Shown: piece after piece, positions 1-34,352 of the stretch | Numbering within the stretch: position 1 is the first letter of the stretch | Layout: each line of letters begins with the position of its first letter | NCBI RefSeq assembly: GCF_001468225.1 | Contig: NZ_LNRU01000002.1 | Coordinates: forward strand, 124,001 to 188,000 | Length of the DNA stretch: 64,000 bases | Reading direction: 5' to 3' | Origin: Sphingopyxis sp. H053 | Lineage (GTDB): Bacteria; Pseudomonadota; Alphaproteobacteria; Sphingomonadales; Sphingomonadaceae | Notes under the pieces: model-generated | Told to the model about the DNA's origin: nothing | The model's database searches: none | What the model saw: the letters and a program-made list of their open reading frames with translations, nothing else | Position numbers and translations under genes: made by a program

Positions 1-400
1 CCCCGACATTTTCGTCGGCCGCCACCCCTTCCCCGGCCCCGGCCTCGCGATCCGCATCCCTGGCGAAGTATCGAAGGAACGCTGCGACATATTGCGCAAG
101 GCCGACGCGGTCTATCTCGAGGAAATCCGCAACGCGGGGCTCTATGATGCGATCTGGCAGGCGTTCGCGGTGCTGCTGCCCGTCAAGACCGTCGGCGTGA
201 TGGGCGACGGCCGCACCTACGATCATGTCTGCGCGCTGCGCGCCGTAACCTCGACCGACGGCATGACGGCCGACATCTATCCATTCGACGCAAGCTTCCT
301 CAGTCGCTGCGCGACGCGCATCATCAACGAGGTACAGGGCATCAACCGCGTGGTGTATGACTATACGTCGAAACCGCCGGGCACGATCGAGTGGGAGTGA
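1..400 (+). CDS. guaA: GMP synthase (glutamine-hydrolysing), C-terminal part
   Basis: The last 132 codons of guaA; the gene is cut by the window edge and its frame starts at base 2. GMP synthase aminates XMP to GMP in cytoplasmic purine synthesis. The visible part is the dimerisation domain with the family hallmarks [12 protein letters not shown], the [15 protein letters not shown] stretch and the invariant ending KPPGTIEWE just before TGA. Nothing is missing at the 3' end. The final codons lie inside a 61-bp sequence that is repeated at 34292-34352, so this 3' end is the likely integration target of the island that follows. In many bacteria the guaA 3' end is used by tyrosine-recombinase islands. 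Identification is certain. Confidence 0.97.
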
Positions 401-449
401 CGGTATCAATCGATATCAATCGACTACAATCGGCAGAAGCACTTCGATT
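389..449 (+). repeat. Left copy of 61-bp direct repeat (putative attL)
   Basis: This sequence starts in the last guaA codons (GAGTGGGAGTG) and matches 34292-34352 at 56 of 61 positions, with an identical 31-base core at 403-433. The core is three 10-bp tandem units: TATCAATCGA twice and CTACAATCGG (404-413, 414-423, 424-433). The guaA stop codon TGA is kept in this copy. A direct repeat anchored on a gene 3' end and spanning 33.9 kb is the usual footprint of site-specific integration. The rest of the gap to the next gene (450-512) holds a T7 run (454-460) and nothing else I recognise. Confidence 0.8.
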
Positions 450-512
450 AGGATTTTTTTGCCATAGTTTCCTTCGCGGAGGCCATTGATATGCCCTGCA
501 CTTCCGACAGCC

Positions 513-1691
513 TCACTGACGCAATTGGGCGCCACCGAGCCGTTGCACGATCATGGCGGCCCCCACGCCCATAGCCCCAGTCAAGACGACCATTCCATAA
601 CGCCCGTTGCAGGCATCAAGGGCGTCGAGCAGCGTCGACGTCAGAATCGCGCCGCTGGCGCCCATCGGATGACCCTTCGCCAAGTGCCCGCCGCCGACAT
701 TGACGCACGACGGATCGGCGTCGCGGTCGCGGAGGAATTTGGCGATGGTGACGGCAAAGGCCTCCATGAATTCGATCCGGTCGAGATCCGCGAGACCAAG
801 GCCGGCGCGCGCGAGCACCTTGTCCATCGCGGCGAAGCCAGCGGTCAGCGAGGCGGCCGGATCGCCGCCGCTTTCGGCAAAGGCGATCGCGCGCGCGCGC
901 GGGGCGGGGCCGAGCCCTTCGGCGCCAACGAGCGCGAGGCCCGCGCCGTCGCAGATCGGCGGGGCGTGGGCGATGCTGTGGAGCGGCTCGAAGGTCGCGC
1001 CGTCGAGCGCGCCGGCATATTGCGGCTGCAAGTCGCCGAAGGCAGGCGGCGCGGCGGCGAGCGATTCGGCCGTCGTCTGCGGCCGGATGCATTCCTCGCC
1101 GGTCAGCGCGCCGGTCGCGATGCGCGAATGCTGCAAGCGCGGGTCGGCATCCGCTGCCGCGGCCTTTTGCTGCGAGGCGAGAGCAACCGCGTCGAGCTCG
1201 GCGCGGGTGATGCCTTCGGCGTTCGCGAGCCGGTCGGCGGCGAGCACCGGCGGGACAAAGCGCGCGCGGGCCGGCAGGCTATCGTCGTCATAATAGGCCG
1301 CGCGGTCGCCCAGAAACGGGCTCCGGCTCATCAATTCGATCCCGCCCGCGAGGATGCACGTGGCTTCGCCGCTCGCGACCTTTGCGACCGCTTGACCGAT
1401 CGCCGACAGCCCCGATGCGCAATAATTGTTGATGCTGTGCGCCGCCGTCGTGTCGGGCAGGCCCGCATGGAGCTTTGACACCAGCGCGATATGCCCGCCC
1501 TGCGCGCCGCTTTGCGTGACGCAGCCGAGGAGCAGCGCATCGGGATTGGCCGCGACATTGCCGCAGCGCGCCGCGAGCGCCGCCGCCTGCTGGCGCACGA
1601 GTTCCTGCGGGGTCAGCGCGGCGAGACCGCCATCGGGCCGCGCCTTGCCGCGCGGTGTCCGCACCGCGTCATAGAGATAGACGTTGGTCAA
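513..1691 (-). CDS. Thiolase-like protein (acetyl-CoA acetyltransferase family)
   Basis: A 392-aa thiolase-superfamily protein, the last gene of the minus-strand operon 7086-513, 3 bases after the preceding thiolase gene. Biosynthetic and degradative thiolases condense or cleave 3-ketoacyl-CoA in the cytoplasm. The nucleophile motif NNYCASGLSAI (about residue 91) and the GHPMGASGA histidine motif are present. Two other signatures are altered: the usual NEAF is MEAFA, and the second catalytic cysteine (CxGGG motif near the C-terminus) aligns with threonine in LTGAMGVG. It may therefore be an altered thiolase or a partner subunit rather than a standard acetyltransferase. Context suggests thiolysis of a CoA ester made by the upstream ligase. 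Confidence 0.85.
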   Translation of the reverse strand: MTNVYLYDAVRTPRGKARPDGGLAALTPQELVRQQAAALAARCGNVAANPDALLLGCVTQSGAQGGHIALVSKLHAGLPDTTAAHSINNYCASGLSAIGQAVAKVASGEATCILAGGIELMSRSPFLGDRAAYYDDDSLPARARFVPPVLAADRLANAEGITRAELDAVALASQQKAAAADADPRLQHSRIATGALTGEECIRPQTTAESLAAAPPAFGDLQPQYAGALDGATFEPLHSIAHAPPICDGAGLALVGAEGLGPAPRARAIAFAESGGDPAASLTAGFAAMDKVLARAGLGLADLDRIEFMEAFAVTIAKFLRDRDADPSCVNVGGGHLAKGHPMGASGAILTSTLLDALDACNGRYGMVVLTGAMGVGAAMIVQRLGGAQLRQ

Positions 1692-1694
1692 GAA

Positions 1695-2924
1695 TCAGAC
1701 GCCGACGACGAAGCTGACCGCGGTCGTTGCGCTGCCGCCGACGTTGAAGGTCGCGAAATTGCGCGCACCCTCGACCTGATAATCGCCGGCGTTGCCGGTG
1801 ACCTGGCGCCAGCTGTCGAGCAGCATCCGAACCCCCGTTGCACCGACCGGATGGCCAAGGCCAATCAGCCCGCCCGACGGATTGACCGGCAGCTTCCCGC
1901 CGAGCCCAATCGTCCCATCCTCGACCGCGCGCCAGCTTTCGCCCGGCGGCGTGATGCCGAAATGGTCGATCGCCATATATTCGGTGATCGAGAAACAGTC
2001 GTGCACCTCGACCCCGTCGCACGCATAGACGTCGGGCATTTCGGCGCGGCGCAGCGCATCCATCATCGCCTTGCGCACGCTCGGGAAGACATAGGGCGCA
2101 CCGCGGCTTCCCGCGACCTTGGTCGAGTAAAGCAAAGGCGCGGTCGAATGGCCCCAGCCCTTGATGCGCGGGATCGCGTCGACAGAAATGCCCCGCCGCT
2201 TCGCATAGGCTTCGGCAACCGCGCGCGAGGCGAGGAAGATCGCCGCGGCGCCGTCGGTGACCTGGCCGCAGTCGGATTTGCGCAGGCTTCCCTCGATTAG
2301 CGGATTGACCTCGTCATTCTCGCCGAGATGATCGTCAGTGACCGCCCAGCCGCGCGTCTGCGAGTTCGGGTTCTTCTTCGCATTGGCGAAATTATTCGCC
2401 GAAATGCCACGCAGATGGGCGTGGTCGAGCCCGAAGCGTTCGTCATATTCCTCGGCGACGCGCGCGAACATATACGGCCAGACGTAGCGCGCCTCCTGCG
2501 CTTCACGCCCTGCCCAGGCCGCGGCACCAAGATATTCGGCGGCGCGCTGGCCGGGGACGTTGCGCATCAGCTCGATGCCGAGCACGAGCGCGAGGCCGTA
2601 GCGCTCGGCCTCGATCTCCGCCGCGGCGGCGAGGATCGCGATGCTGCCCGACGCGCAGGCGGCCTCATGCCGCGACGCCGGAACGCCCGCCAGATCGGGA
2701 TGGACATGGCCGAAGAAGCCGCCGAGCTGGCCTTGCCCCGCGAACAGCTCGCCGACGAAATTGCCGACATGCGCGGTTTCGACCTCTTTCGGCTCGATGC
2801 CCGTCGCGACGAAGGCGGCCTCGGCGACCTCGCGGAACAGCTCGAACAATCCGCCGCCTTCGCGTTCGAGGTTGCGCGCAAAGTCGGTCTGGGCGCCGCC
2901 CAGGATGAAGACGTCCTTGGCCAT
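1695..2924 (-). CDS. SCP2-type thiolase, acetyl-CoA acetyltransferase
   Basis: A 409-aa protein of the sterol-carrier-protein-2 (SCPx) type of thiolases, which cleave branched or bulky 3-ketoacyl-CoA such as steroid or isoprenoid side chains. Visible catalytic features are the cysteine in HEAACASGS (about residue 90), the histidine in VHDCFSITEY, and the GLGHPVGATG motif near the C-terminus. Length matches the family. It lies 1 base after the acyl-CoA ligase stop on the minus strand and 3 bases before the second thiolase, so the pair is probably co-translated and may form a complex. The substrate is not readable from sequence. Confidence 0.9.
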   Translation of the reverse strand: MAKDVFILGGAQTDFARNLEREGGGLFELFREVAEAAFVATGIEPKEVETAHVGNFVGELFAGQGQLGGFFGHVHPDLAGVPASRHEAACASGSIAILAAAAEIEAERYGLALVLGIELMRNVPGQRAAEYLGAAAWAGREAQEARYVWPYMFARVAEEYDERFGLDHAHLRGISANNFANAKKNPNSQTRGWAVTDDHLGENDEVNPLIEGSLRKSDCGQVTDGAAAIFLASRAVAEAYAKRRGISVDAIPRIKGWGHSTAPLLYSTKVAGSRGAPYVFPSVRKAMMDALRRAEMPDVYACDGVEVHDCFSITEYMAIDHFGITPPGESWRAVEDGTIGLGGKLPVNPSGGLIGLGHPVGATGVRMLLDSWRQVTGNAGDYQVEGARNFATFNVGGSATTAVSFVVGV

Positions 2925-2925
2925 G

Positions 2926-4617
2926 TCAGGCCTCCTTTTCGAGAGTGGCGAGCGCCATTTCGCGCACGTCGCTACGCATCACCTTGTTGGTGACGTTGCG
3001 CGGCAGCGCGTCGAAGCGGAACAGTCGCTCGGGCAGCTTGAAGACCGCGAGATCCTTTTCGCGGAGATAGTCGGCGACCTCGCCGATCCCGACATCGCCC
3101 GGCCCACGCGGAACATAGGCGAGGCCGATGCGCTCGCCCATCACCGGGTCGGGGAGCGAGAAGGTGCAGGCTTCGGCGAGCAAAGGATGGCCGCCGAGCA
3201 ACTGGTCGATTTCCTCGGGCGAGATGTTGACCCCGCCACGGATGATGAGATCCTTGCAGCGCCCGACGAAGCGATAGAAATCGCCGCCTTCGGCAATCTC
3301 GAACAGGTCGCCGGTGCGGAACCAGCCGTCGCCGGTGAAAGCTTCGGCGGTGCGTTCGGGGGCGTTGTGATAGCCCTCGAACAAGGTCGGGCCGCGGATC
3401 TGGAGTTCGCCAGATACGCCATCTTCCTCGATCGGATCGCCCCCATTTGGCGGCACCAGCCGGCTCTCGATATTATACGCCCGCCCCTCGCCATAGGGCG
3501 GGGCGTATCGGCCGCGGCGCGGGAACAGGCTCGCGCGCTTGTCGGGATCGGGCATGTCGCCCTCGCCGGTGATGAAGCTCATCCCCTCGTTCGACCCGAA
3601 GACGTTGACGATGATGATCCCGAGCTTTTCCTGAAAGCCGCGCACCATCGCGGGCGCGAGCGGCGCCGAGCCCGAGGCGATGACGCGCAGGCTCGACAAG
3701 TCGACCGACGCAAGCAAGGCCTCATTCTGCAGCAGCATGTTGAGCACCGCGGGCGGCGCGATCGTCAGGCTCGGCCGCTCGGTCGCGATCTGCTTGAGGT
3801 AGACGCCGGGGTCGAAGGGATGATGGAGCACCATCGTCCCCGCGCTCGTCAGCCAGCACATGGTGATGCCGCCGATGCTCGCCATATTGATCAGCGGGAA
3901 GGGGTTGAGCAGCACGTCGCCCGGCCCGACCCTCATCGCCTCATAGCCCGCCCCCGCGACCGCGATCCAGTGATTGTGACTGCGCGGCACGCCCTTCGGG
4001 ATGCCGGTGGTGCCCGACGTCCAGCAGATGGTGAAGATGTCGTCGGCGTCGACCGGGTTCGCCGCGACATGCGCCGCGAGGCTCGCTTCGTCTCCCCTGG
4101 CGACCGAGAGGTCGAGGGCATCCACCGGCGGGTTCGGGCCGAAAGTCATCAGCCGGATGCCGTCGAGTAGCGGTGCCGCGACGCCGACATGGTCGCAGCC
4201 CTTGACCTGCGTCGCACAGACGAACGCCTTGGGTTCGACGACGCCGATCATGGCTTTCAGCTCGTGGCTGCGATACTGCACCGCCGCCGGGCTGACGATC
4301 GCGCCGATCTGTGCGGCGGCGAAATAGAGCGCAACGAACTCGCTGATGTTGGGCAATTGGACGAGCAGCACGTCATCCTTGCCGATCCCTGCGACGACCA
4401 GAGCGCCAGCCAGCCGGTCAATTTCGGCCTCGAGTTCAGCATAGGTCAGACGTTGCGGTTCGCCGAAGGCAAAGTCGCCGCGATTGGGTGCATCGACCAG
4501 CGCCAGCCGATCGGGATGCGCCACCGCGTTGGCGAAAAACAGGTCGGCGAAACTCTTGTCGCCCCACCAGCCGCTTTCGCGATGCTGTCGCCGTTTATCC
4601 TCTCCCGCGGCGATCAT
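2926..4617 (-). CDS. Acyl-CoA synthetase (AMP-forming)
   Basis: A 564-aa member of the adenylate-forming family, which activates a carboxylic acid with ATP and CoA. The ATP motif TSGTTGIPKGV lies near residue 190, the GSNEG motif near 340, and GRCKDLIIRGG with VNISPEEID marks the hinge before the C-terminal domain; the catalytic lysine is in NVTNKVMR near the end. I place the start at 4617 (ATGATCGCC); only one base separates it from the stop codon of the upstream oxygenase gene, while an open frame extending further upstream overlaps that gene and lacks family similarity. Context suggests it activates an acid produced by oxidative cleavage. Confidence 0.9.
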   Translation of the reverse strand: MIAAGEDKRRQHRESGWWGDKSFADLFFANAVAHPDRLALVDAPNRGDFAFGEPQRLTYAELEAEIDRLAGALVVAGIGKDDVLLVQLPNISEFVALYFAAAQIGAIVSPAAVQYRSHELKAMIGVVEPKAFVCATQVKGCDHVGVAAPLLDGIRLMTFGPNPPVDALDLSVARGDEASLAAHVAANPVDADDIFTICWTSGTTGIPKGVPRSHNHWIAVAGAGYEAMRVGPGDVLLNPFPLINMASIGGITMCWLTSAGTMVLHHPFDPGVYLKQIATERPSLTIAPPAVLNMLLQNEALLASVDLSSLRVIASGSAPLAPAMVRGFQEKLGIIIVNVFGSNEGMSFITGEGDMPDPDKRASLFPRRGRYAPPYGEGRAYNIESRLVPPNGGDPIEEDGVSGELQIRGPTLFEGYHNAPERTAEAFTGDGWFRTGDLFEIAEGGDFYRFVGRCKDLIIRGGVNISPEEIDQLLGGHPLLAEACTFSLPDPVMGERIGLAYVPRGPGDVGIGEVADYLREKDLAVFKLPERLFRFDALPRNVTNKVMRSDVREMALATLEKEA

Positions 4618-4618
4618 G

Positions 4619-6115
4619 TCAGGCGGCCAGCACGCTGTTGTCGCCCATGCCGATATCGTCGCCGGACGCCCAGACGGTGTGCGTTCCCGAACAGATGCGC
4701 TCGGGCAGGATGATCCGGCACACCGGCCCCGCCGCGACATTCTTGGCGTCGATCAGCACGCATTCGGATGTGTCGGTCTCAAGGTCGGCGATGAAGGAGA
4801 CGAGATAGCCGTCGTCCTCGTCCTTCGCATCGATCCGCGGCGCGAAGGGGGCCTCGCTGCCGAAGCGGCCGGGGCCGAATTCATAGGATTCGCTCGTGCG
4901 GGCGTTGAGGTCGTGCTTCACCAGCCCGCGGAACAGGAACCAGCCCGGCTCGGGGATCGCGCTATAGGCGTAGCGATAGGGCTTGCCCGCATAGCGGTGG
5001 TTGAACATCCCGAATTCGAGGTCGCGGTCGTCGAGCCGCTCCTCGACTGTCTCGCCGGTCTTCAAATTGAAGCGCCAGCGGTGGAGGCGCGGCTTGAGCA
5101 GCCCCTGGTCGAGATACGCCATCATCCGCTCGAGCCCCTCGGGCGCGTTCGGATAGGATTTGGGCATCGGCTCTTCTTGATAATAGCCGTCGAGGATGAT
5201 CTCGTCCCCTTCCTCCCATGCGTTGAGCCAGTGGAGGGTGTAGGTCGGCTCGGCCGTAAACCAGCGAATATCCTCGGGCTGCCCGTGCCGCGGGATGATC
5301 GCAAAGCGCGTCTTTTCGTCGGGGTGGAACTGGACGACGTGCAGATTCCGCTCGAGCAGTTCCTCGTTCCAGTAGAGCGGCATGTCGTTGAGGATCGTGT
5401 AATTCTTGGTGAACGCCATGTCGTGCGGCAGGCGCGGCCCGGCGAGCGGGATCGGGATATAATGTTTGAGCCTGTTGTCCGCGCCGACGACGCCATAATG
5501 CATGAAGGGCGCGTGCTTCGAATAGTTGAAGAACATCAGCTCCCCGGTCGCGAGGTCGACCTTGCAATGCGCCGAAATGCCGTCGAGCGGCACCCAGCTT
5601 TCGGTGCCGAACTGTTCGAGCGTGAAGGGGTCGAGCCGATAGGCTTCGCCGCACTGGTAGAAGGTCGAGATGATCCGGCCCGCGTGGATCGCGACGTCGG
5701 TCGACGATGAATCCTTGAGCCACTCCTGCGCGCCCCAGCCGTGGCGCGTCGATTTGTGCGGCGGCTCCATCAGCCCCGCCCACAGCGAGCGGCCGGCTTC
5801 CTTCTCCGCCTCGAACCCCTTGGTGCGCACGAAGCGGCTGCGATAGCTTGCGCGCCCGTCCTTGAACGAGATCGAATGGATGAAGCCGTCGCCGTCGAAG
5901 GGGTGATAGCGGCCGATCGGCTCGTGAATCTGGTTTTCGCCGGTGCGCACGTAAACGCCGTCGATGTCGGTCGGGATATTGCCGATCACCTCGGCATCGC
6001 CATTGGCGAAGATCGCGTTCCATTCATTATAGGTCGGCCGCCACGCGCCCTTCATATAAGGGTGGTCGTTCGGCTGGATCGTCGATGCGATCGTCTCGAC
6101 AAGCTGGGCGGTCAT
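4619..6115 (-). CDS. Carotenoid-cleavage-type dioxygenase (RPE65/CCD family)
   Basis: A 498-aa protein of the carotenoid oxygenase family, non-haem Fe(II) enzymes that split a C=C bond of carotenoids, apocarotenoids or hydroxystilbenes into two carbonyl products. The four iron-binding histidines of the beta-propeller can be placed in ISAHCKVD, LPHDMAFT, TLHWLNAWEEGD and GTHTVW (last strand). The N-terminal GRYHPFDGDGFIHS blade is typical. There is no signal peptide, so it is cytoplasmic. Its start overlaps the upstream flavoprotein stop by 4 bases (ATGA) and its stop is 1 base before the CoA ligase start: tight translational coupling. Sphingomonads are known for lignostilbene dioxygenases of this family; whether the substrate here is a stilbene or a terpenoid cannot be told. 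Confidence 0.9.
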   Translation of the reverse strand: MTAQLVETIASTIQPNDHPYMKGAWRPTYNEWNAIFANGDAEVIGNIPTDIDGVYVRTGENQIHEPIGRYHPFDGDGFIHSISFKDGRASYRSRFVRTKGFEAEKEAGRSLWAGLMEPPHKSTRHGWGAQEWLKDSSSTDVAIHAGRIISTFYQCGEAYRLDPFTLEQFGTESWVPLDGISAHCKVDLATGELMFFNYSKHAPFMHYGVVGADNRLKHYIPIPLAGPRLPHDMAFTKNYTILNDMPLYWNEELLERNLHVVQFHPDEKTRFAIIPRHGQPEDIRWFTAEPTYTLHWLNAWEEGDEIILDGYYQEEPMPKSYPNAPEGLERMMAYLDQGLLKPRLHRWRFNLKTGETVEERLDDRDLEFGMFNHRYAGKPYRYAYSAIPEPGWFLFRGLVKHDLNARTSESYEFGPGRFGSEAPFAPRIDAKDEDDGYLVSFIADLETDTSECVLIDAKNVAAGPVCRIILPERICSGTHTVWASGDDIGMGDNSVLAA

Positions 6116-7086
6116 GCGATGACTCCTTCGGCGGGGGCAAATCGCGGCCTTGCGGCGGCGGCATCATATTCGGAAACGAGGCGATCGACGATAGTCGCGA
6201 CGGGTTCGACACCGCGCACCGCGCCGACACCTTGCCCGGCGGACCAGACATTCTTCCACGCCTTGGCATCGTCCTGCGCGTCGGAGAAGTTGGGACGCTT
6301 GTCCTCGGGCATGTTCGCGGGGTCATAACCCGCGGCGATCAGGCTCGATTTCAGCCAGTTGGCGGTCACACCGGTGATACCCTTTGAAGGAATAATGTCC
6401 TCGGCGCCGGCGGCGACGACCATATCCTTATACCCCGGCACCGCCATGCTCTCGGCACAGGCGATCAGCGAGGTGCCGAGATAGGCGAAATCGGCGCCCA
6501 ATATTTCGGCGGCACGGACCGCATGCCCCGTCGAGATCGCTCCGCCAAGCACGAGCGGTCCGTCCCAGAATTGCCGAACCTCCTCGACGAAGGCGAAGCC
6601 GGCGGTCGCGCCGGTGTGCCCGCCCGCGCCCGCGGCGACGAGCACCAGCCCGTCGACACCCGCGGCCGCCGCCTTGCGCGCAAAGCCCACCGAATTGACG
6701 TCAGCGAAGACGAGCCCGCCATAGGAATGGATTTCCTCGACCACCCGCGCCGGGCTGCCCAGCGCGGTGATGACGAGCGGCACCTTGTGCCGCACGACGC
6801 AGGCGATATCGTCGGGCAACCGGCTGTTCGACGGATGGACGACCAGGTTCACCGCCCACGCCGCCGCCTCGGGATCGTTCGACAGCGCCGCATCGATCCG
6901 GCTCACCCAATCCTCAAGGTCGGCGGAAGTGCGCGCATTGGGCGCGGGGAAACTGCCGATCACGCCCGCGCGCGAGGCCGCGATCACCATCTCGGGGCTC
7001 GACACGAGGAACATCGGCGCCGCGATCGCGGGCAGGCGCAAATTGCGCGTTAGCGCTGGTGGAAGGCCGTGTCCCGGCAAGGTCAA
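6112..7086 (-). CDS. Nitronate monooxygenase / FMN-dependent NPD-like protein
   Basis: A 324-aa TIM-barrel flavoprotein of the nitronate monooxygenase / FabK family. The N-terminus PAIAAPMFLVSSPE, the FMN-phosphate motif AAGAGGHTG near residue 150 and GGAISTGHAV followed by GADFAYLGTSLIA are family hallmarks. Members oxidise nitronates or reduce enoyl substrates in the cytoplasm. It is the first gene of a five-gene operon and is divergent from a TonB receptor gene, with 113 bases between the starts. In this operon a reductase or oxidase role on the compound cleaved by the neighbouring oxygenase is more plausible than nitroalkane detoxification, but this is inference. Confidence 0.85.
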   Translation of the reverse strand: MTLPGHGLPPALTRNLRLPAIAAPMFLVSSPEMVIAASRAGVIGSFPAPNARTSADLEDWVSRIDAALSNDPEAAAWAVNLVVHPSNSRLPDDIACVVRHKVPLVITALGSPARVVEEIHSYGGLVFADVNSVGFARKAAAAGVDGLVLVAAGAGGHTGATAGFAFVEEVRQFWDGPLVLGGAISTGHAVRAAEILGADFAYLGTSLIACAESMAVPGYKDMVVAAGAEDIIPSKGITGVTANWLKSSLIAAGYDPANMPEDKRPNFSDAQDDAKAWKNVWSAGQGVGAVRGVEPVATIVDRLVSEYDAAAARPRFAPAEGVIA

Positions 7087-7199
7087 TCCTCTCTCAAATT
7101 ATCTGACTTGCATAGTGATACTTAAAGCCCTTATGAGTCGCAAGGCAAGAAAAACATCGCGGCGGTGGTCGCCAAGACGATGGTGCGTGGGAGGACCCT

Positions 7200-9500: not shown

Positions 9501-9508
9501 TGGCGGGC

Positions 9509-9533
9509 GGGAGGGCGGAGGCTCCGCCCTCCC
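9509..9533 (+). terminator. Hairpin after TonB receptor gene
   Basis: Two perfect 12-base arms, GGGAGGGCGGAG and CTCCGCCCTCCC, are separated by one base and begin 8 bases after the receptor stop codon. The stem is very GC-rich but has no U-run behind it, so it may be a terminator that needs no poly-U or an mRNA 3' end stabiliser. Confidence 0.55.
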
Positions 9534-9605
9534 CCTCCCGGCGCACGCCTTGTCGATGCACCCGTCCTGGTTTAGGGGCATGGCGACGCAAGGGATGGCT
9601 TTGGC

Positions 9606-10559: not shown

Positions 10560-10584
10560 GCCAAGGATAGAGCCTCATCATTTG

Positions 10585-12143: not shown

Positions 12144-12181
12144 GGCCCGTTCTCCCTGTCGTTTGACGCCCGCTCCGGCCG

Positions 12182-21094: not shown

Positions 21095-21108
21095 GGTGAT
21101 GCTCCCGC

Positions 21109-21726: not shown

Positions 21727-21759
21727 TGACCTCTCCCTTGCTTATGTTATGATGATTGA

Positions 21760-21771
21760 GTAATCGATTGC
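21760..21771. promoter_or_regulatory. LacI-type operator (one mismatch)
   Basis: GTAATCGATTGC, one base from the perfect site at 14448. It lies 34 bases upstream of the Tat small subunit gene. Confidence 0.55.
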
Positions 21772-21834
21772 AAATACCTATGCAAGAGGGTAAATCGGCA
21801 TAAATATACAAATGAAAGCCCCTACTGCGACGCT

Positions 21835-21854
21835 ATATGTAATCATTTACATAT
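21835..21854. promoter_or_regulatory. LacI-type operator before cytochrome c gene
   Basis: A 20-bp inverted repeat, ATATGTAA arms around TCAT, 31 bases upstream of the cytochrome c start. Its inner TGTAAT...TTTACA resembles 18284-18299. Paired with 21760, its centre lies about 79 bases away, a spacing that would allow a small repression loop. Confidence 0.6.
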
Positions 21855-21884
21855 GGCACGACCGGGGAAAAAGAGGGATCGAGG

Positions 21885-22286: not shown

Positions 22287-22326
22287 CACCGGCCAAACCG
22301 ACAACGAGAATGAAAGGGACAGGATT

Positions 22327-23349: not shown

Positions 23350-23416
23350 TCGGGAGCGTGTCGGGCGAGAAGGGCGCACGCCTGACTGCCGAGCCGATAC
23401 CTCCCTCTTCCGGACC

Positions 23417-24445: not shown

Positions 24446-24487
24446 CGCGCCTTGTTAGACGCGGAATACGTATCCAGTCCACCCTTT

Positions 24488-24503
24488 ATGTCAGCGCTGA
24501 CAT
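24488..24503. promoter_or_regulatory. LacI-type operator, proximal copy
   Basis: Perfect 16-bp palindrome with core TGTCAGCGCTGACA and central CG, the LacI/GalR pattern. Centre to centre it is 22 bases from the second copy, about two helical turns, so dimers would sit on the same face. Confidence 0.75.
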
Positions 24504-24510
24504 TTTTCAT

Positions 24511-24524
24511 TGTCAGCGCTGACA
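24511..24524. promoter_or_regulatory. LacI-type operator, distal copy
   Basis: Perfect 14-bp palindrome TGTCAGCGCTGACA, identical to the core of 24488-24503. It lies 47 bases upstream of the GH3 start, over the expected promoter. Confidence 0.75.
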
Positions 24525-24571
24525 TAATTAGATAGCTAGCGATTCGAAAACAGAAGAAATGGGAGAGTTTG

Positions 24572-26782: not shown

Positions 26783-26806
26783 ACCATCACAGAACAGGGG
26801 GACGAC

Positions 26807-29071
26807 ATGAAGAGGATTTGGACTTCCGCCACCGCGCTCGGCGCTGTGCTCGCGGCCACGACGCCGGCCTTCGCGCAGGATAGCGCGGCGACCGACGAAC
26901 AGACCGGCGGCTTCGGCGAAATCATCGTTACTGCGCAGAAACGCGCCGAAAACCTCCAGGACGTGCCGATCTCGGCAACCGTCGTCAGCGCGGATGCACT
27001 TGCTTCGCGCCAGATTTTCGACCCGTCGCAGCTCCAGCTCGTCGCGCCCAGCCTGCAGGTCAAAAGCTTCAACGCGGCGCTCGGCGCATCCAATTTCTCG
27101 ATCCGCGGCGTCGGCACATTGAGCTTCTCGAACTCGATCGAAGCGAGCGTGACCTCGGTGATCGACGGCGTGGTCATGGGCAACCCGTCGCTCGGCTTCA
27201 TGAACTATCTCGACCTCGCGCAGATCGAAGTGCTCAACGGGCCGCAGGGCATGTTGTTCGGCAAGAACGCCTCTGCCGGCCTCGTCAACATCACGACGCG
27301 CCGCCCGGAAATCGGCCGTTTCGACGGGCAGGTGATGGGCGAGATCGCACAGATGAAGGTGCCCGGCGACGGATTGCTCTATCGTCTGCAAGGCATCGTC
27401 AACGTTCCGCTGGGCGATAAGGCCGCGCTGCGCGTCAGCGCGTCGCAGACGCATACCGATCCCGTCATCACGAATCTGGTCGACGTTCCGGGCAGCCAAT
27501 ATGGCCAGAACCAGACCAGCCTGCGCGCCAAATTGTTGTGGGAACCGACCGCCGAGCTCAGCATCTATATCGCCGGCGACTATGCCCATTCCTCGGGCGT
27601 CGGATCGGGCGGCAGCGCCGACCGGATCGTCCGGCCCACGAGCCGCTTCGCCGCCGAAAACGCCGCACTCGGCATCGTCGCCAACCCCGACAATTTCTTC
27701 TCGAGCTATGGCGCGCCGACGCGGGCCAATTTCGATGTCGGCGGGCTTCAGGCCAATATAGATTATGAGTTCGAAAGCGGTCACACGCTGACCAGCATCA
27801 CTGCCTGGCGAAAGTTCGACGCCGACAACCTCTTCGATTCGGACAAGCACCGCATCAACCTGCTCGATACGAACCACCAGCTTTCGACGATCAGCCAGTT
27901 CACCGAAGAGCTGCGGCTGGCGTCGCCGGTCGGCCAGTTTTTCGAATATCAGTTCGGTCTCTATTATTACGATTCCAAGAGCGATTCCGACATCACCGCG
28001 GCGGGCGCCAACGGCGCGACAGCATCGCCGCCGGCCGGCTTCAATGCATGGCTCGGCATTCACTCGACCGGCTCGATGACGTCGAAAAGCTACGCAGGCT
28101 TCGGTCAGGGCACGCTCAATATCAGCGACCGCTTCCGGTTCACCTTCGGCGGTCGCTATACCTATGACAAGCTCAAGCTTCGCTCGGTCAGCGATGCGGC
28201 CGGGTTCGTCGTCCCGTTCGGCGCGGTGGGGTCGCGCAACCAGCGGATCAGCGAGGAAAATTTCTCGTGGCGCGTCGGCGCGCAATATGACGTGACCGAC
28301 GACGTCATGGCCTATGCCTCGGTGGCGCGCGGCTACAAGGGACCGGGTTTCAACCTGACGATCGATCCGCGCGCGCCGCTGATCATGCCCGAAATCCCGA
28401 CCTCCTATGAAGCCGGAATCAAGTCCACGCTGCTCGATCGCCACCTGATCTTCAACATCTCGGGCTACACCTCGACCTTCAAGAACTTCCAGGCGCAGGC
28501 GTTCGACACGGCGAGCAACGGCTATGTCCTGCTGAACGCGGGCGAACTCAAGTCGCGCGGGTTCGAGATCGAGGCGTCGGCGCTGCCCGCCGAAGGCCTC
28601 GTCTTCAATCTGGGGGTCAGCTATGTCGACGCCTTCTTCTCGGACTTCCAGGGTGACCGCTGCTATCCCTTCCAGCCGAACTGCCGCGCCAACGGGACGA
28701 TCGATTCGTCGGGCAACCGCTTGCCGAACGTGCCCAAATGGACGGTCAGCCTGACGGGCCGCTATGAAACGCCGGTCAGCGAAAGCCTCGCGGTATTTCT
28801 GCAGGGTGCGCTCTACGCTCGCACCGGTTCGAACTTCAGCTCGACCGAGGATCCGAACACGAAATTGCCCGGCTATTCGCTGTTCGACGCCAGCATCGGA
28901 CTCAAACAGATCGACGACAAGTTCAAGCTGACGCTCTTCTGCCGCAACTGCTTCGACAAGCGCCAGCCGACCTTCATCAACTCCAACTCGCAGTCGCGCG
29001 GCGACTATTACCACATGTTCGGGCTCAACTCGTTCCGGACGCTGGGCGTGTCGCTGGAAGGTCGTTTCTAA
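26807..29071 (+). CDS. TonB-dependent receptor
   Basis: A 754-aa outer-membrane receptor with signal peptide MKRIWTSATALGAVLAATTP... cleaved near FAQ (residue 24), TonB-box region FGEIIVTAQKRAENLQDVPIS, plug motif IEVLNGPQGMLFGKNASAG and a barrel ending in LGVSLEGRF. The LNGPQGMLFG stretch departs from the usual LRGPQGTLFG. It follows GH3 by 24 bases and is probably in the same transcript under the twin TGTCAG operators. Likely function: uptake of the oligomer or glycoside that GH3 then hydrolyses. Confidence 0.93.
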   Translation: MKRIWTSATALGAVLAATTPAFAQDSAATDEQTGGFGEIIVTAQKRAENLQDVPISATVVSADALASRQIFDPSQLQLVAPSLQVKSFNAALGASNFSIRGVGTLSFSNSIEASVTSVIDGVVMGNPSLGFMNYLDLAQIEVLNGPQGMLFGKNASAGLVNITTRRPEIGRFDGQVMGEIAQMKVPGDGLLYRLQGIVNVPLGDKAALRVSASQTHTDPVITNLVDVPGSQYGQNQTSLRAKLLWEPTAELSIYIAGDYAHSSGVGSGGSADRIVRPTSRFAAENAALGIVANPDNFFSSYGAPTRANFDVGGLQANIDYEFESGHTLTSITAWRKFDADNLFDSDKHRINLLDTNHQLSTISQFTEELRLASPVGQFFEYQFGLYYYDSKSDSDITAAGANGATASPPAGFNAWLGIHSTGSMTSKSYAGFGQGTLNISDRFRFTFGGRYTYDKLKLRSVSDAAGFVVPFGAVGSRNQRISEENFSWRVGAQYDVTDDVMAYASVARGYKGPGFNLTIDPRAPLIMPEIPTSYEAGIKSTLLDRHLIFNISGYTSTFKNFQAQAFDTASNGYVLLNAGELKSRGFEIEASALPAEGLVFNLGVSYVDAFFSDFQGDRCYPFQPNCRANGTIDSSGNRLPNVPKWTVSLTGRYETPVSESLAVFLQGALYARTGSNFSSTEDPNTKLPGYSLFDASIGLKQIDDKFKLTLFCRNCFDKRQPTFINSNSQSRGDYYHMFGLNSFRTLGVSLEGRF

Positions 29072-29083
29072 AAAGAGGGGAGG

Positions 29084-29113
29084 CGCCGGGCCGTCGATTG
29101 GGACGGCCCGGCG
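29084..29113 (+). terminator. Strong intergenic hairpin
   Basis: Perfect 12-base stem, CGCCGGGCCGTC and its complement, around loop GATTGG, starting 12 bases after the TonB receptor stop. No U-run follows, and the phosphatase start is only 20 bases further, so it may reduce read-through or protect the upstream mRNA rather than end transcription fully. Confidence 0.5.
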
Positions 29114-29133
29114 TCACGCCCGGGAGGGTTCGG

Positions 29134-30843
29134 ATGACCAAGAAATGGATCGCGGCTGCGGTCAGCGCCATCGCCATGGCCGCATTTTCGGCGACACCCG
29201 CCGCCGCCGAGGAAACGCCCGGCAAACCAAAGCTGGTCGTCCTGATTTCGATCGACCAGTTCTCGGCCGATCTGTTCAACGCGAGCCGGAGCGAATTTCA
29301 TGACGGGCTCGCCAGGCTGGCGCAGGGCATCGTCTATTCGAACGGTTTTCATGCGCAGGGCGTGACCGAAACCTGCGCGGGCCATGCGGTGATTGCGAGC
29401 GGCCGGCATCCTGCTGCGACGGGGATTATCGCGAACCAATGGTACGACCAGCGCGCCGGAGCCGATCGCTATTGCACCGACGACGGCGTCCATGTCGCGG
29501 CACGCGCCAGCCGCAAACTCGGCACCGGACCGGCGATGCTCGAGGTGTCGACGCTCGGCGACTGGCTCAAGGCCGCCTCGCCCGCCAATCGCGTCTTTTC
29601 GGTCGCGGGCAAGGATCGGTCGGCGATCATGATGGGCGGCCGCCATCCCGACGGGGCGTTCTGGTTCGATGGCAAGCAGGGATTCGACACCTGGGGCACC
29701 GATGCTGAGGACGCGCAGCGCCGCCTCGCGCCGCTTGCAAAGCTCAATGCCGGGTTTGCGCGGCGGCTGAAGGCCGCACCCGCCTGGACCTACCGGCGCG
29801 AAAGCTGCCGCGTACGCGAGGCGGTGATTCCCCTCCCCGGCGGCAAGAGTTTCCACGCGCACCTGCCGCCCGATCCGCCGGCCGCGATCCCGGGCCAGCC
29901 GCCCGCGAGCGGCGCGGCGCTGCCGCCCTGGTTTTATGACCAGATCACAATCGACGCGGCGATCGACCTGCTCGACGGACAAAAGCTTGGCCAATCGCCC
30001 GGAACCGACCTGCTCGCGGTCGGCCTGTCGGCGACCGATATGGTCGGCCATGCCTATGGCACGCAGGGACCCGAGATGTGCGACCAGATGGCCCGGGTCG
30101 ACGAGGCGGTCGGTCGCCTCCTCAAACGGATCGCGGAACTGAAGATTCCCGTACTCGTCGCGCTCACCGCCGACCATGGCGGCGGCGACATCCCCGAACG
30201 GCTGGCGGAGCGCGGCTATCGCGATGCCGGGCGGATCGATGCCGCCGCGCTGCTCGCCGATCTCAACGCCGCGGCGCGCGCCGCGACAGGCGTCGACTGG
30301 AACCCGCTGCGTCCGGCGTTCTTCGACCCGACGCAGCTTGTCGTCGTCGACGCCGGCGGGCAGTCGCTCGCCGATACCGCGCTCAAGAACCGCATCGCCG
30401 AAGCGACCGCGGCGCGCGCGCTCACCCGGCCGGGCATCGCTGGTGCCTGGACGGCGGCGCAATTGCAGGGGCGGAAACCCGACCCGCGCCTGTCCCCCGA
30501 CCTGCTGCCGGTCGCCGACCGCATGGCGCTGTCCTTCTATCCCGGGCGTAGCGGCGACATATTGCTCGCGACCGACCCGCTGAAGATCGCCGCGCCGCCG
30601 CTCCCCGGCCTGTTCATGATGGGCCATTCGGGCCCCAGCGACTTCAACCGGCGCGTCCCCATCCTCTTCTGGTGGCCCGGTGTGGCGCATCAGGAACGCG
30701 CCCTGCCGGTACAGGTGGCCGATGTGGCGCCAACACTTGCCGCCGCCATACGGGTCGCGCCGGACGGTCCGGTCGATGGAGAATGCCTCGCACTCGGCGG
30801 AACGGGGACAGGCTGTCCCCTTCCGGCAGCATCGCGGCGATAA
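29134..30843 (+). CDS. Secreted alkaline phosphatase / phosphodiesterase (PhoK/PafA type)
   Basis: A 569-aa periplasmic enzyme of the alkaline phosphatase superfamily. Signal peptide ends near PAAAEE (residue 26). The first metal aspartate is in LISIDQF, the nucleophile threonine in GVTETCAGHAVIASGRHP, and the other metal ligands in DMVGHAYG and ALTADHGGGDIPE. The TETCxGH motif is that of PhoK from Sphingomonas and PafA, which use threonine. Start ATG 29134, behind GGGAGGG; an upstream in-frame ATG would overlap the hairpin. It could free phosphate from phosphorylated sugars or other monoesters taken up by the preceding receptor. Confidence 0.88.
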   Translation: MTKKWIAAAVSAIAMAAFSATPAAAEETPGKPKLVVLISIDQFSADLFNASRSEFHDGLARLAQGIVYSNGFHAQGVTETCAGHAVIASGRHPAATGIIANQWYDQRAGADRYCTDDGVHVAARASRKLGTGPAMLEVSTLGDWLKAASPANRVFSVAGKDRSAIMMGGRHPDGAFWFDGKQGFDTWGTDAEDAQRRLAPLAKLNAGFARRLKAAPAWTYRRESCRVREAVIPLPGGKSFHAHLPPDPPAAIPGQPPASGAALPPWFYDQITIDAAIDLLDGQKLGQSPGTDLLAVGLSATDMVGHAYGTQGPEMCDQMARVDEAVGRLLKRIAELKIPVLVALTADHGGGDIPERLAERGYRDAGRIDAAALLADLNAAARAATGVDWNPLRPAFFDPTQLVVVDAGGQSLADTALKNRIAEATAARALTRPGIAGAWTAAQLQGRKPDPRLSPDLLPVADRMALSFYPGRSGDILLATDPLKIAAPPLPGLFMMGHSGPSDFNRRVPILFWWPGVAHQERALPVQVADVAPTLAAAIRVAPDGPVDGECLALGGTGTGCPLPAASRR

Positions 30844-30859
30844 TGTGAAAGGACAGACA

Positions 30860-32413
30860 ATGCGGATATTCCCCACCGTCGCGCTCGCGCTGGCGCTCGT
30901 TTCTCCCGCGATGGCGGCCGACACCGCGCCGCAGCCGGTCGTCGACACGCGTAGCGGTGCCGTGCAGGGCGTCGCCGAAGGCCAGAGCATCGCCTATCGG
31001 GGGATTCCCTATGCCCTGCCCCCCGTCGGCGATCTGCGCTGGCGCGCGCCGCAGCCCGCCGATCGCTGGACCCAGGTTCGCGTCGCCGACCAGTACGGCC
31101 CCGATTGCATGCAGATTCCCTTCAAGGCCGATGCCGCGCCGCTGGGGGTGAAGCCGTCCGAGGACTGCCTCTATCTCAACGTCTGGACCCCGGCCGAACG
31201 GTCGCGCAAGAAACGCCCGGTGATGGTCTGGATCTATGGCGGCGGTTTCGTCAACGGCGGCAGCTCGCCGCCGGTCTATACGGGCCGGTCTTTTGCCGAA
31301 TCGGATGTGGTTTTCGTCAGCTTCAACTACCGGCTCGGCCGTTTCGGCTTTTTCGCCCACCCGGCCCTCAAGCGCGAAGCCGCTGGCGCGCCGACGGGCA
31401 ATTATGCGATCCTCGACCAGATCGCGGCGCTGAAATGGGTGCAGGAAAATATCGCGGCCTTCGGCGGCGATCCCGGCAACGTCACCATTTTCGGTGAATC
31501 GGCCGGCGGCATGTCGGTACACGCGCTGACGACGACCCCGCTTGCGAAGGGACTGTTTCACAAGGCGATCTCCATGTCGGGCGGCGGGCGCGATCTGATG
31601 GGCCCGCTGCGCACCGCGACCGAGGCCGAAGCGATCGGCGCCGGCTTTGCGCGGGCAAAGGGGATAGAGGGCGATGAGGCCGGCGCACTCGCAGCGCTTC
31701 GCGCCCTGCCGGCCGACAGCGTGATGAGCGGGCTCAACCTGATGAGCCTGTTCGGCGCGAAGGATTTCACCCCGCTCTATGCCGACGGACAGATCGTGCG
31801 CCGGTCGATCGATGCGGCCTATGCCGCCGGCGACGGCGCAAAGATTCCGATGGTCATCGGCGCGAACGATGCCGACGGCTTCTTCTTCGGCGGGGGTGTC
31901 GATCAGGCCTATGCCCCGCTGGCAGCGGTGCGGGCAGAGGCCGAGCCGGTCTATGACCCCGAAGCGCGCAAGGACGCGATGCGCATCGGCATCGCGGTTT
32001 CGGCCGACACGATGTTCCTCGAACCCGCGCGGCACGTCGCCCGGATCATCGCGGGGCGCGGGCAGCCCGTCTTCACCTACCGCTTCGGCTATGTGCCCGA
32101 ATATCTGCGCGCCAAGATGCCGGGCGCCTTTCATGCCAGCGAATTGCCCTTTTTCTTCGGCACCGTCGACGCCCGGCACGGCGCCGCGACATCGCCCGCC
32201 GATCGCGCGGCGGCGCGGCTGGTACAGGATTATTGGGTCAATTTCGCAAAGACCGGCGTGCCCTCGGCAACGGACGGCGGGCACTGGTCGCCCGGCGGCG
32301 TGGCTGCCGACACCATCATGACCTTCGACGCGGCCGGCGCCCGCGAAGGTCCCGACCCGATCCGCTCGCGGCTCGACTTCGTCGAGCGCGTCGTGGCCGC
32401 CAGAGCGCCCTGA
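30860..32413 (+). CDS. Type-B carboxylesterase, secreted
   Basis: A 517-aa alpha/beta-hydrolase. Signal peptide MRIFPTVALALALVSPAMA, then RGIPYALPPVGDLRWRAPQP, SEDCLYLNVW, YGGGFVNGG (oxyanion region), the nucleophile elbow GESAGGMS (about residue 213) and FHASELPFFF with the catalytic histidine. Start ATG 30860 with AAAGGACAG before it, 17 bases after the phosphatase stop. It is the intact paralogue of the frameshifted gene at 10585-12143, with matching DCMQ(I/L)PF and SAGGMSV stretches. Family members hydrolyse carboxylic esters such as acyl or phenolic esters of plant material. Confidence 0.92.
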   Translation: MRIFPTVALALALVSPAMAADTAPQPVVDTRSGAVQGVAEGQSIAYRGIPYALPPVGDLRWRAPQPADRWTQVRVADQYGPDCMQIPFKADAAPLGVKPSEDCLYLNVWTPAERSRKKRPVMVWIYGGGFVNGGSSPPVYTGRSFAESDVVFVSFNYRLGRFGFFAHPALKREAAGAPTGNYAILDQIAALKWVQENIAAFGGDPGNVTIFGESAGGMSVHALTTTPLAKGLFHKAISMSGGGRDLMGPLRTATEAEAIGAGFARAKGIEGDEAGALAALRALPADSVMSGLNLMSLFGAKDFTPLYADGQIVRRSIDAAYAAGDGAKIPMVIGANDADGFFFGGGVDQAYAPLAAVRAEAEPVYDPEARKDAMRIGIAVSADTMFLEPARHVARIIAGRGQPVFTYRFGYVPEYLRAKMPGAFHASELPFFFGTVDARHGAATSPADRAAARLVQDYWVNFAKTGVPSATDGGHWSPGGVAADTIMTFDAAGAREGPDPIRSRLDFVERVVAARAP

Positions 32414-32431
32414 CCGGTGCGCCCGATTCCG

Positions 32432-34042
32432 ATGCGCTTTCTGTCGCGTCTCGCCGCCCTGACCGGCGCTCTCTTGTTCGCGCCGCCCGTGGCGGCGCAA
32501 GAGGTGGTGGCGAAGGTTGAAAGCGGCGAGATCGGCGGAACCGTCGACAACGGCGTCGTTCGCTTCCTCGGCGTCCCCTATGCCGCGCCGCCCGTCGGCG
32601 AACGGCGCTGGGCCGCCCCCGAAGCGCCGCCGCCGTGGTCCGGGCGGCGCGATGCGAAGGCGCATGGCCCCGGCTGCGTCCAGACAATCACCCCCGGCGG
32701 CTTCGGTCCGTGGACCCGCGAATATGTCGCGCCGGCCCCGGTTTCGGAGGATTGCCTCACCCTCAACATCTGGGCGCCGGCGGAGCATGACGGCCGGCCG
32801 CTGCCGGTGATGATATGGATTCACGGCGGCGCCTTCATGTCGGGGTCGAATGCGGTTCCGATCTATGACGGCGCGGCGCTGGCGCGGCAGGGCATCATTG
32901 TCGTGTCGATCAACTATCGCCTGGGCGTCTTCGGCTTTGCCGCCTTTCGCGACCTCGCGGGCGATCCCGGCGGCGGCGCCAATTTCGGGTTGCAGGACAT
33001 ATTGGCGGCGCTGCGCTGGACGCAGCGCAATATCGCCGGCTTTGGGGGCGATCCCGGACAGGTGACGATCGCCGGTCAGTCGGCAGGTGCCATAGCCGTC
33101 CATATGCTGCTCCTCTCGCCGAAAGCGGACGGCCTGTTCGCGCGCGCGATCGCACAAAGCGGCATTGTCGAAACCCCGCTCCCTGATCGCATCGAAGCCG
33201 ACCGCCGCGGCGCCGACCTGCTCGCCCGCGCGAGGCTCCCCGGTATCGCAGCGCTGCGGCACCTGCCGGCGGATCGGGTGATGGCGCTGCTCGAAACCGG
33301 CCCGCTCGCCGGCGCTGGAGATGTCGGCGGCATGCCGCTGCTCGGCCCGGTCGTCGACGGATCGATCCTGCCCGGACAGGTTGCCGCGATGGAAGCGGAG
33401 GGCCGGCGGCGCGCCGTGCCGGTGATGGTCGGGCTGAACGCCGACGAAGGCGTGTTGAGCCCCGGTTATTTCCGCGCGGCGCCTGCGGATGTGCGTGCGC
33501 TCGCCGCCCGGATCGCGGGCGACGCCGGCGCCGATGCACTACTGGCGGACATCCCGCTCGATAGCGAGATGACGGCGCTCGCCGCGCGCCGGCAACTGAC
33601 CCGCCTGTACGGCCTTGCATCGCTTGTCGACTGGGCGCGCATGCACCACGCCCCCGCCTTTGCCTATTATTACACCCATCCCGAACCGGGCCCGGGACAG
33701 GAGATGTTCGGCGCGTTCCACTCGGCCGAAATGCCCTACACTTTCAATTCGTTGAGAACCTCGCCCGACCGCCCCTTCACGGAATACGACCGCTCGGTTG
33801 CTGCTACCATGTCGCAACTATGGGCAACTTTCGTGAAGCGCGGCGACCCCAACGGCCCGGGTTTGCCACAATGGCCGGAGTTCGCGAACAGGTCAGGCGG
33901 CGTGATGGAACTGGGCGCACATTTTGCGCCATACCGAACCGAGGAGCAGAAGCTGCACCTTGTGCTTGGCAGATTCGCCATTGGCCCGGGACGGTCAATC
34001 TTCGGCATCGAAAGCTTCGTGGAAACGTCACGGGACCGATGA
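32432..34042 (+). CDS. Type-B carboxylesterase, secreted
   Basis: A 536-aa carboxylesterase with signal peptide MRFLSRLAALTGALLFAPPVAAQ. Motifs: LGVPYAAPPVGERRW, SEDCLTLNIW, IHGGAFMSGS, nucleophile elbow GQSAGAIA (about residue 218) and FHSAEMPYTF with histidine. The start is taken at ATG 32432, just before the signal peptide; a GTG at 32417 is an alternative. It follows the previous esterase by 18 bases and is more distant in sequence from the other two, so it is not a recent duplicate. Last gene before the right repeat of the island. Confidence 0.9.
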   Translation: MRFLSRLAALTGALLFAPPVAAQEVVAKVESGEIGGTVDNGVVRFLGVPYAAPPVGERRWAAPEAPPPWSGRRDAKAHGPGCVQTITPGGFGPWTREYVAPAPVSEDCLTLNIWAPAEHDGRPLPVMIWIHGGAFMSGSNAVPIYDGAALARQGIIVVSINYRLGVFGFAAFRDLAGDPGGGANFGLQDILAALRWTQRNIAGFGGDPGQVTIAGQSAGAIAVHMLLLSPKADGLFARAIAQSGIVETPLPDRIEADRRGADLLARARLPGIAALRHLPADRVMALLETGPLAGAGDVGGMPLLGPVVDGSILPGQVAAMEAEGRRRAVPVMVGLNADEGVLSPGYFRAAPADVRALAARIAGDAGADALLADIPLDSEMTALAARRQLTRLYGLASLVDWARMHHAPAFAYYYTHPEPGPGQEMFGAFHSAEMPYTFNSLRTSPDRPFTEYDRSVAATMSQLWATFVKRGDPNGPGLPQWPEFANRSGGVMELGAHFAPYRTEEQKLHLVLGRFAIGPGRSIFGIESFVETSRDR

Positions 34043-34052
34043 TTCGACAAAG

Positions 34053-34147
34053 GTGCGCGTTCAAATCGACTTACGGCATTTGTCCGCGAAAGGCCTGAGG
34101 CTAAGGTGCCGATCGTGAAAGCGCCGAGGCTCGAATGTAGCCGAATG
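34053..34147. repeat. Diverged repeat next to the island's right end (copy 1)
   Basis: About 95 bases here match 62798-62888 with scattered differences; shared blocks include AATCGACT, GGGGCTA/GAGGCTA, CCGATC and TCGAATG in the same order. A further AT-rich match (CTTTGAATTTCAAAAGCTTAT here, CTTTAATTTTCAATATCTTAT near 62901) extends the similarity. Downstream to 34291 the sequence is AT-rich, holds no gene and leads into the second att-like repeat. Function unknown; it could be the end of an integrative element. Confidence 0.5.
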
Positions 34148-34291
34148 TCTTCGAATTTGAGATTTGGTCGAATCGGGAATTTTTTCTTTGAATTTCAAAA
34201 GCTTATTTTTTTGCGGACCGCTGCTCGGTCATTCCGGACCAAATATTTTTTGTCCATTATTTTTCAGTTTGTTATGTCTAATTGAACAATT

Positions 34292-34352
34292 GAGTGGGAG
34301 TGGCCGTATCAATCGATATCAATCGACTACAATCGGTGGGAGCACTTCGATT
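34292..34352 (+). repeat. Right copy of 61-bp direct repeat (putative attR)
   Basis: It matches the guaA-end sequence 389-449 at 56 of 61 positions; the 31-base core (34306-34336) is identical. Here the guaA end is not in a gene and the stop codon position reads TGG. It sits in a 375-base gap (34043-34417) that is much more AT-rich than the flanks. The rest of the gap, 34353-34417, shows nothing recognisable. Confidence 0.8.

Follow-up and report, generated by a model that had tools for sequence, protein, structure and literature searches.

A probable tandem array of integrase-less metabolic islands behind guaA in Sphingopyxis sp. H053

Introduction

The 3ʹ end of guaA, the gene for GMP synthase, is a known insertion site for genomic islands. 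GIsul2 and ICERspD18B are both described as guaA islands with GAGTGGGA as the integration core, in the portions of the accounts drawn on here (PMC9376610, PMC7775301); guaA islands are also the subject of Song et al. 2012, as cited in PMC7775301. The same portion of PMC9376610 reports GIsul2 once in Sphingopyxis granuli, and describes experiments in which a guaA-island integrase excises and integrates a unit that has no integrase of its own. At another gene, ssrA of Dehalococcoides, the part of PMC3146451 used here describes tandem islands, 15 of them without an integration module, that were suggested to be cis-mobilizable elements (CIMEs). Here, we describe the DNA behind guaA in Sphingopyxis sp. 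H053. Our window is a stretch of 64,000 nt (NZ_LNRU01000002.1:124,001-188,000, forward strand). A first, sequence-only reading of this DNA had proposed a single 34-kb catabolic island bracketed by a direct repeat. We conclude instead that the region from guaA to ~62,945 is very probably a domesticated tandem accretion array of at least three integrase-less, CIME-like metabolic islands, each bounded by attachment (att) sites, which we call I1, I2 and I3 (Table 1).

Results

The extent of the inserted DNA was read from congeners. Our genus sample comprised 80 genomes, designated by G numbers, among them that of the window (G000, 26 contigs). A guaA match at E ≤ 1e-20 was found in 78 of the 80, the exceptions being G095 and G101; in G096, guaA lies at a contig end. 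DNA downstream of guaA was oriented from 76 congeners, mostly 20 kb each and in some cases a few hundred bases. In 16 of these 76, homology to the window begins less than 1 kb from the guaA stop, always at window 62954 or later. The cleanest case is G080, in which a homologue of 62954-63542 begins 5 bases past the stop (positions 6-595, 86.6% identity). Because the congener backbone behind guaA starts at the homologue of 62954, the inserted stretch is, by this comparison, about 62.5 kb long, running from guaA to ~62,945 and not ending at 34352.

The sequence-only reading had predicted an empty site that joins guaA to whatever lies at 34353. An empty site was seen in two forms: in G075, guaA is followed by sequence like the arm at 34303-34352 onward (73% over 253 bp, window 34286-34522), with different cargo behind it, and G080 joins guaA to the 62954 homologue. 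In G035, guaA is followed by sequence like window 34420 onward. The G075 junction, together with a repeat that brackets 33.9 kb and has one copy inside guaA, would fit a single island at 389-34352, with the repeat as its left and right attachment sites (attL and attR) and ordinary chromosome from 34353 onward. However, the backbone found close to guaA in the 16 congeners starts at ~62953 and is never 34353 onward, I3 has a right end of its own, and relatives hold I1 and I3 together with no repeat between them (see below). Since G080 contradicts it as well, we reject the single island as very unlikely; the insertion comprises three or more units in succession.

The repeat itself had been described accurately. 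On recomputation, 389-449 and 34292-34352 are identical at 56 of 61 positions, with an identical 31-bp stretch at 403-433, and the match lengthens to 383-449 / 34286-34352 at 60/67. A 45-base repeat pattern with 3 mismatches permitted matches the window twice, whereas 100 shuffles gave a mean of 0.00. A frequent occurrence of the repeat genome-wide, which would have spoken against integration, was not seen: a search of all contigs of G000 with window 380-460 (E ≤ 0.001) returned these two sites only. As that reading also stated, copy 1 begins within the final guaA codons, and copy 2 lies outside genes, between open reading frame (ORF) models ending at 34042 and beginning at 34667; an ORF at 34465-34884 that overlaps the latter has no Pfam match. 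The final guaA codons, GAG TGG GAG TGA, include GAGTGGGA. Positions 389-400 of the repeat are guaA core; 401-449 are an element left arm common to I1 and I2, not target-gene sequence. Since each entry would leave a left arm behind the core, the 61-bp repeat would represent core plus left arm of two consecutive units. The insertion thus lies at GAGTGGGA with the core repeated at the far border, as in other guaA 3ʹ-end islands: the core at 34292 has GAGTGGGA intact, and that at 62938 is decayed, with GAATGGGA.

Site-specific insertion at the guaA 3ʹ end, which the sequence-only reading had also proposed, is well supported by right ends across the genus. Searching the 80 genomes with 34040-34470 returned 25 match rows from 20 of them (G000 included); 11 of the 25 rows stop precisely at window 34302, where the sequence reads GAGTGGGARTG. 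A sequence-only right-arm profile (R1), made from 14 aligned ends, two of them from the window, found 34 ends in 25 of the 80 genomes, G000 included (E ≤ 0.01). Twenty of the 34 are on the contig that carries guaA, and all 20 lie downstream of it, on its strand, 0.8-455 kb away; 9 of these 20 had trained R1. We inspected the far flank of 28 ends, omitting both ends in G006, G027:C13, the second ends in G074 and G098, and G096. In 16 of the 28, the flank is, within 30 bases, the post-guaA sequence of another species, such that these right ends have empty-site counterparts, as the array has in G080; examples elsewhere are the pairs G071/G029, G035/G018, G031/G080 and G092/G069. Half of the inspected ends (14/28), including 8 of the 16 with an empty-site match, had trained R1, and far flanks played no part in the training. 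Among the other flanks, four are a recognised left arm, one of these being the window's own I1/I2 border, and one is I1 itself (G098).

The end of I3 (62897-62945) was recovered by a leave-one-out profile (E 3.1e-5), and also with neither window end nor the G027 copy in the profile (E 5.8e-5); equivalent junctions are present in G091 and G076. In a family sample of 397 genomes, only 11 of them from the genus Sphingopyxis and G075 not among them, right-arm matches occur in 27 genomes and 20 of 96 genera. Nine of 11 family right ends that we inspected finish at the core; the other two were misread because their loci are cut, and say nothing. A segmental duplication of the guaA end, with no site-specific recombination, would likewise yield a direct repeat, and has no specific support beyond this. 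It is contradicted by core-abutting right arms that recur in 25 of 80 genomes with differing flanks, and by the 16 of 28 empty-site matches; we therefore reject it as scarcely credible.

Some right ends lie far from guaA on the same contig: 87-190 kb behind it in three congeners (G091:C4, G077:C1 and G032:C16), and 455 kb in G076:C2. Hence, barring intervening rearrangements, there may be guaA arrays, or very large elements, of more than 100 kb.

Left arms fall into three types. Integrase-bearing guaA islands have a common left arm of ~215 bases between guaA and the integrase, and a profile of this arm has 80 matches in the 80 loci of a wider integrase scan (the best 80 of at least 559 relatives, including a few congeners already in the genus sample). 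The compact arms of the window, 401-449 and 34303-34352, weakly match the inner ~24-41 bases of this integrase-type arm. Across 77 loci (76 congeners and the window), a recognised arm stands directly behind guaA in 26: it is integrase-type in 18, of a second type in 6 and compact only in 2 (the window and G075); 16 of the 26 had trained one of the three left-arm profiles (8, 5 and 3). Twelve of the 18 integrase-type arms are accompanied by a full-length guaA integrase; G009 is cut by its contig and G077 has a short ORF only. The remaining four (G003, G020, G022 and G078) have no integrase in the fetched stretch, G020 retaining a 42-residue piece. Conversely, G021 has a guaA-type integrase and no recognised arm.

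The second arm type, found behind guaA or a right end in G076, G007, G010, G033, G092, G017, G027:C10 and G089:C113, is not accompanied by a guaA-type integrase in any of the six loci with this arm directly behind guaA, over the stretch fetched, and a partner integrase for it was not found. It occurs in none of the 397 family genomes, an empty result that shows nothing alone. The compact arm occurs in one of them, G000 itself; G075, which has the arm, is outside that sample. The second-type units of G033 (28 kb) and G010 (23 kb) are each delimited by an arm and by a right end with an empty-site flank. A tyrosine-recombinase profile finds no match in either unit, and of 20 ORF models scanned (10/32 and 10/23, some outside the unit), 17 are metabolic, transport or regulatory and 3 are family-less.

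Table 1. Features of the array behind guaA and of its borders, in window coordinates.
Feature	Position	Strand	Remarks
guaA 3ʹ part, GMP synthase C-terminal domain	92..400	+	Pfam GMP_synt_C E 4.7e-44
Integration core at guaA, left boundary of the array	386..400	+	Common to the displaced copy 34289-34303 and, decayed, 62938-62945
I1, 33.9-kb integrase-less island, 23 ORF models	401..34302		
I1 compact left arm, TATCAATCGA-type repeats	401..449	+	Common to 34303-34352 and to G075 directly behind guaA
I1 right arm and core	34152..34302	+	Genus-conserved
Repeat copy 2: displaced guaA core (stop TGA now TGG) and I2 left arm	34292..34352	+	
I2, ~5.5 kb, starts at core, right end lost	34303..~39806		Left end G075-like
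I3, ~23 kb, 16 ORF models	~39807..62945		Conserved behind I1 in G006, G027, G098
I3 right arm and decayed core (GAATGGGA in TGAATGGGACAG)	62797..62948	+	blastn 72% over 96 bp to I1 end
First backbone gene, OmdA/YdeI family	62953..63549	+	Directly behind guaA in G080
Start of genus backbone, HxlR regulator onward	63568..64000		Near guaA in many congeners

Three related species, G006, G027 and G098, carry parts of the array. In G006, guaA is followed by I1 (minus most of 11.0-23.3 kb), then by I3, then by backbone. G027 and G098 have a shortened I1 followed by I3, in both cases on a contig that does not carry guaA, and in G098 the sequence runs on into backbone. The left border of the shared cargo corresponds to window 528 in G006, 445 in G027 and 449 in G098. 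The stretch from 34303 to ~39785, and with it I2, is missing in all three: in G098, the loss spans 11504-39786, and in G027, only ~140 bases separate the I1 core from the counterpart of window 39807. Because I1 adjoins I3 in these species without a second repeat, the repeat marks the start of I2 behind I1.

Long I1 and I3 blocks are 93.6-95.1% identical to those of G006, G027 and G098, with a 190-base piece at 92.6% and an 877-base part at 98.3%. For guaA, identity to the three is 93-96%; for the adjacent backbone of G006 and G098, it is 92.4-95.3% as far as window coordinate 84,528, apart from an additional piece at 83.6%. Since the islands are about as similar to those of relatives as guaA and backbone are, I1 and I3 look like old, vertically inherited residents. 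I2 seems either to have come in later or to have been lost from other genomes. To the left of I1, G098 and G027 have further right ends, which is consistent with newer units landing nearest guaA (guaA being on other contigs there). A ~12-kb part of I1 (11023-23321), with a TonB receptor, a sugar oxidoreductase set and LacI regulators, is gone with the same junction in G006 and G027; G098 retains 11023-11504, which suggests deletion in the other two.

The array lacks an integrase, as the sequence-only reading had noticed. By Pfam (E ≤ 0.001), the 42 ORF models over 513-62760, chosen by codon-position GC, contain no recombinase, relaxase, type IV secretion part or transposase; the relaxase and type IV secretion genes of an integrative and conjugative element are thus absent from these models. 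An HxlR-type regulator has a sub-cut-off match to Replic_Relax (22.0 versus 25.3 bits). A tblastn search of the window and the next 20 kb with four guaA-type integrases and one other gave a best E of 0.30. Searches of I2, behind 34353, with guaA-type and other integrases as queries revealed no decayed integrase.

Some congeners have an integrase next to guaA. At E ≤ 1e-60, a tyrosine recombinase of 420 residues from G024 matches 13 of the 80 genus genomes, in each of them directly behind guaA (287-317 bp), and has no match in G000. In the wider scan, the end of guaA lies less than 800 bp upstream (246-300 bp) in 75 of the best 80 loci of at least 559 relatives; four of the other five have at most 310 bp of upstream sequence, and L207 is a true exception. 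G000 has 19 other tyrosine recombinase matches, and ORF models from 16 of these are at best ~35% identical to the four guaA-type integrases. With no integrase found by Pfam or tblastn adjacent to guaA or elsewhere in the window, and none of the guaA type in the genome at E ≤ 1e-60, we class the array only as an integrase-less derivative of guaA islands. An ORF behind guaA in G092 (G092:C1, a tyrosine recombinase of 320 residues) was considered as a second guaA integrase type. We dropped it because it is 97% identical to a G000 recombinase elsewhere (L033, C7:191312-191815) and is missed by the guaA-type profile.

Could the array still be mobile, with I1, I2 and I3 moved as CIMEs through functional compact arms by the integrase of visiting guaA islands acting in trans? 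This idea and that of a domesticated array are mutually compatible. A compact arm precedes differing cargo twice in the window, in G075 and, less clearly, in G035, and complete congeneric units without a guaA integrase are yet precisely bounded (G033, G010 and G035). In the laboratory, moreover, the part of PMC9376610 used here has a guaA-island integrase moving an integrase-less unit. We nonetheless consider continuing mobility improbable: I1 and I3 diverge at about the rate of the backbone and retain their order in relatives, the cores at 34292 and 62938 bear substitutions around or in them, and G000 has no guaA integrase at E ≤ 1e-60. The sequence-only reading had called its island decayed or trans-mobilised. 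The substituted cores and the lack of an integrase agree with decay; trans-mobilisation of these copies is unsupported, since identity at the level of guaA and backbone points to vertical inheritance.

The Pfam families (E ≤ 0.001) matched by 40 of the 42 ORF models show a metabolic cargo, as first proposed. I1 contains thiolases, an acyl-CoA synthetase, an RPE65/carotenoid-oxygenase-type enzyme, TonB receptors, a GMC oxidoreductase set, GH3 and carboxylesterases. Its importers, GH3, GMC/gluconate-dehydrogenase-type oxidation, carboxylesterases, oxygenase, CoA ligase and thiolases together resemble a kit for plant-type phenolic glycosides and esters. I2 contains a family-less ORF (34667-36418; no match in Pfam at E ≤ 0.001 or in PHROGs at E ≤ 0.1), a beta-lactamase/esterase family protein and an aminotransferase. 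I3, with AsnC, aminotransferase, FAA hydrolase, an aconitase-type pair, LysR, TonB receptor, AbgT, M20, penicillin amidase, DAO, S9 peptidase, HAD, D-Ser-dehydratase-type and RidA-type families and one family-less ORF, resembles an amino-acid and peptide kit. For both kits, the pathway is named by inference from Pfam families. I3 also contains a 273-bp element with inverted terminal repeats (46920-47192), found at 14 sites in the genome including this one: 12 over at least 212 bases at 81% or more, and 2 partial. It is missing from the equivalent I3 site in G006 and G027, and looks like a small non-autonomous repeat.

Discussion

What history would account for the array? We propose that a tyrosine recombinase integrated each unit at the 8-bp core GAGTGGGA; the anatomy and the empty sites support this, and the reaction itself is inferred. 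Each entry would deposit the left arm of the element behind the core and shift the earlier core outward. The displaced cores, now noncoding, would then have decayed, with TGA becoming TGG at 34303 and GAATGGGA arising at 62938. The integrases may have been lost, or never carried. Judging from sequence identity, I1 and I3 were probably already adjoining in an ancestor of four related species, and were vertically inherited thereafter. I2 may have entered later, at the core between I1 and I3, or may have survived only here, its right end being lost. As in a CIME array, I1 and I3 retain att sites, lack integration and transfer genes and show tandem accretion; I2, with no right end, does not have this full set of features.

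Several observations weigh against this history. The far flank is unassigned in 7 of the 28 right ends inspected, and the likeness of the window's arms to those of integrase-bearing islands is short (E 2e-6 to 0.008); the value of 3.5e-11 against G078 comes from a profile that contains the G078 arm itself. I1 adjoins I3 without the 34303 arm in G006 and G027, so that the I1/I2 border as a product of integration rests on the window and on the G075-like left end; G098 is uninformative here because 11504-39786 is deleted. No right arm was found for I2, and a deletion could have left the right breakpoint at 39807 as its scar. Only in G000 and G006 is the array seen to be linked to guaA, since in G027 and G098 the array is on a contig without guaA; no array is found in the 180 kb behind guaA in G027 or in the 38 kb behind it in G098. 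Furthermore, G006 lacks the left arm (it has 191 bp of other sequence), the arm of G027 is replaced, and the 12 kb of I1 at 11.0-23.3 kb are missing from both. We rate the domesticated array as very probable and no higher because G098 is silent on I2 and guaA linkage is seen in two genomes only.

The array is probably an old, integrase-less variant of known guaA islands, larger than the sequence-only reading had it. Our data suggest that stacked, att-bounded units, many of them integrase-less, brought in much of the catabolic repertoire behind guaA in one genus. Right arm plus core provides a sequence signature that delimits units even after integrase loss, and the locus is a caution that the first direct repeat found need not be the end of the foreign DNA. 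More tentatively, and as less likely than not, we suggest that the guaA end in this genus might be a slow cassette platform, where passing guaA islands provide, in trans, the integrases that insert, stack and exchange large integrase-less metabolic cassettes. If true, this would amount to an integron-like stacking of whole pathways, bounded by short arms and a guaA-derived core.

A literature search by titles and abstract openings turned up no account of this array, which is not proof of absence. Among described systems, and as far as the portions of those papers used here go, GIsul2 and ICERspD18B share with it the same target gene end, the same 8-bp core and a direct repeat at the border. 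Related elements in the genus have their integrase ~290-320 bp behind guaA. In contrast, the window units lack integrase, relaxase and transfer families, carry catabolic cargo and are stacked, with decayed displaced cores. The CR2-sul2 unit, moved by the GIsul2 integrase in the part of PMC9376610 cited above, is similarly integrase-less, has guaA-type cores and is stacked beside a guaA island. Mobility is demonstrated for CR2-sul2, whereas the array is known from sequence alone, its displaced cores have diverged and no transposase family was found in it. The Dehalococcoides ssrA islands, as presented in the part of PMC3146451 used here, are likewise tandem metabolic units with gene-end direct repeats and a conserved motif beside the repeat, many without integration genes; they target ssrA with a serine-family integrase, whereas here the target is guaA and the enzyme a tyrosine recombinase.

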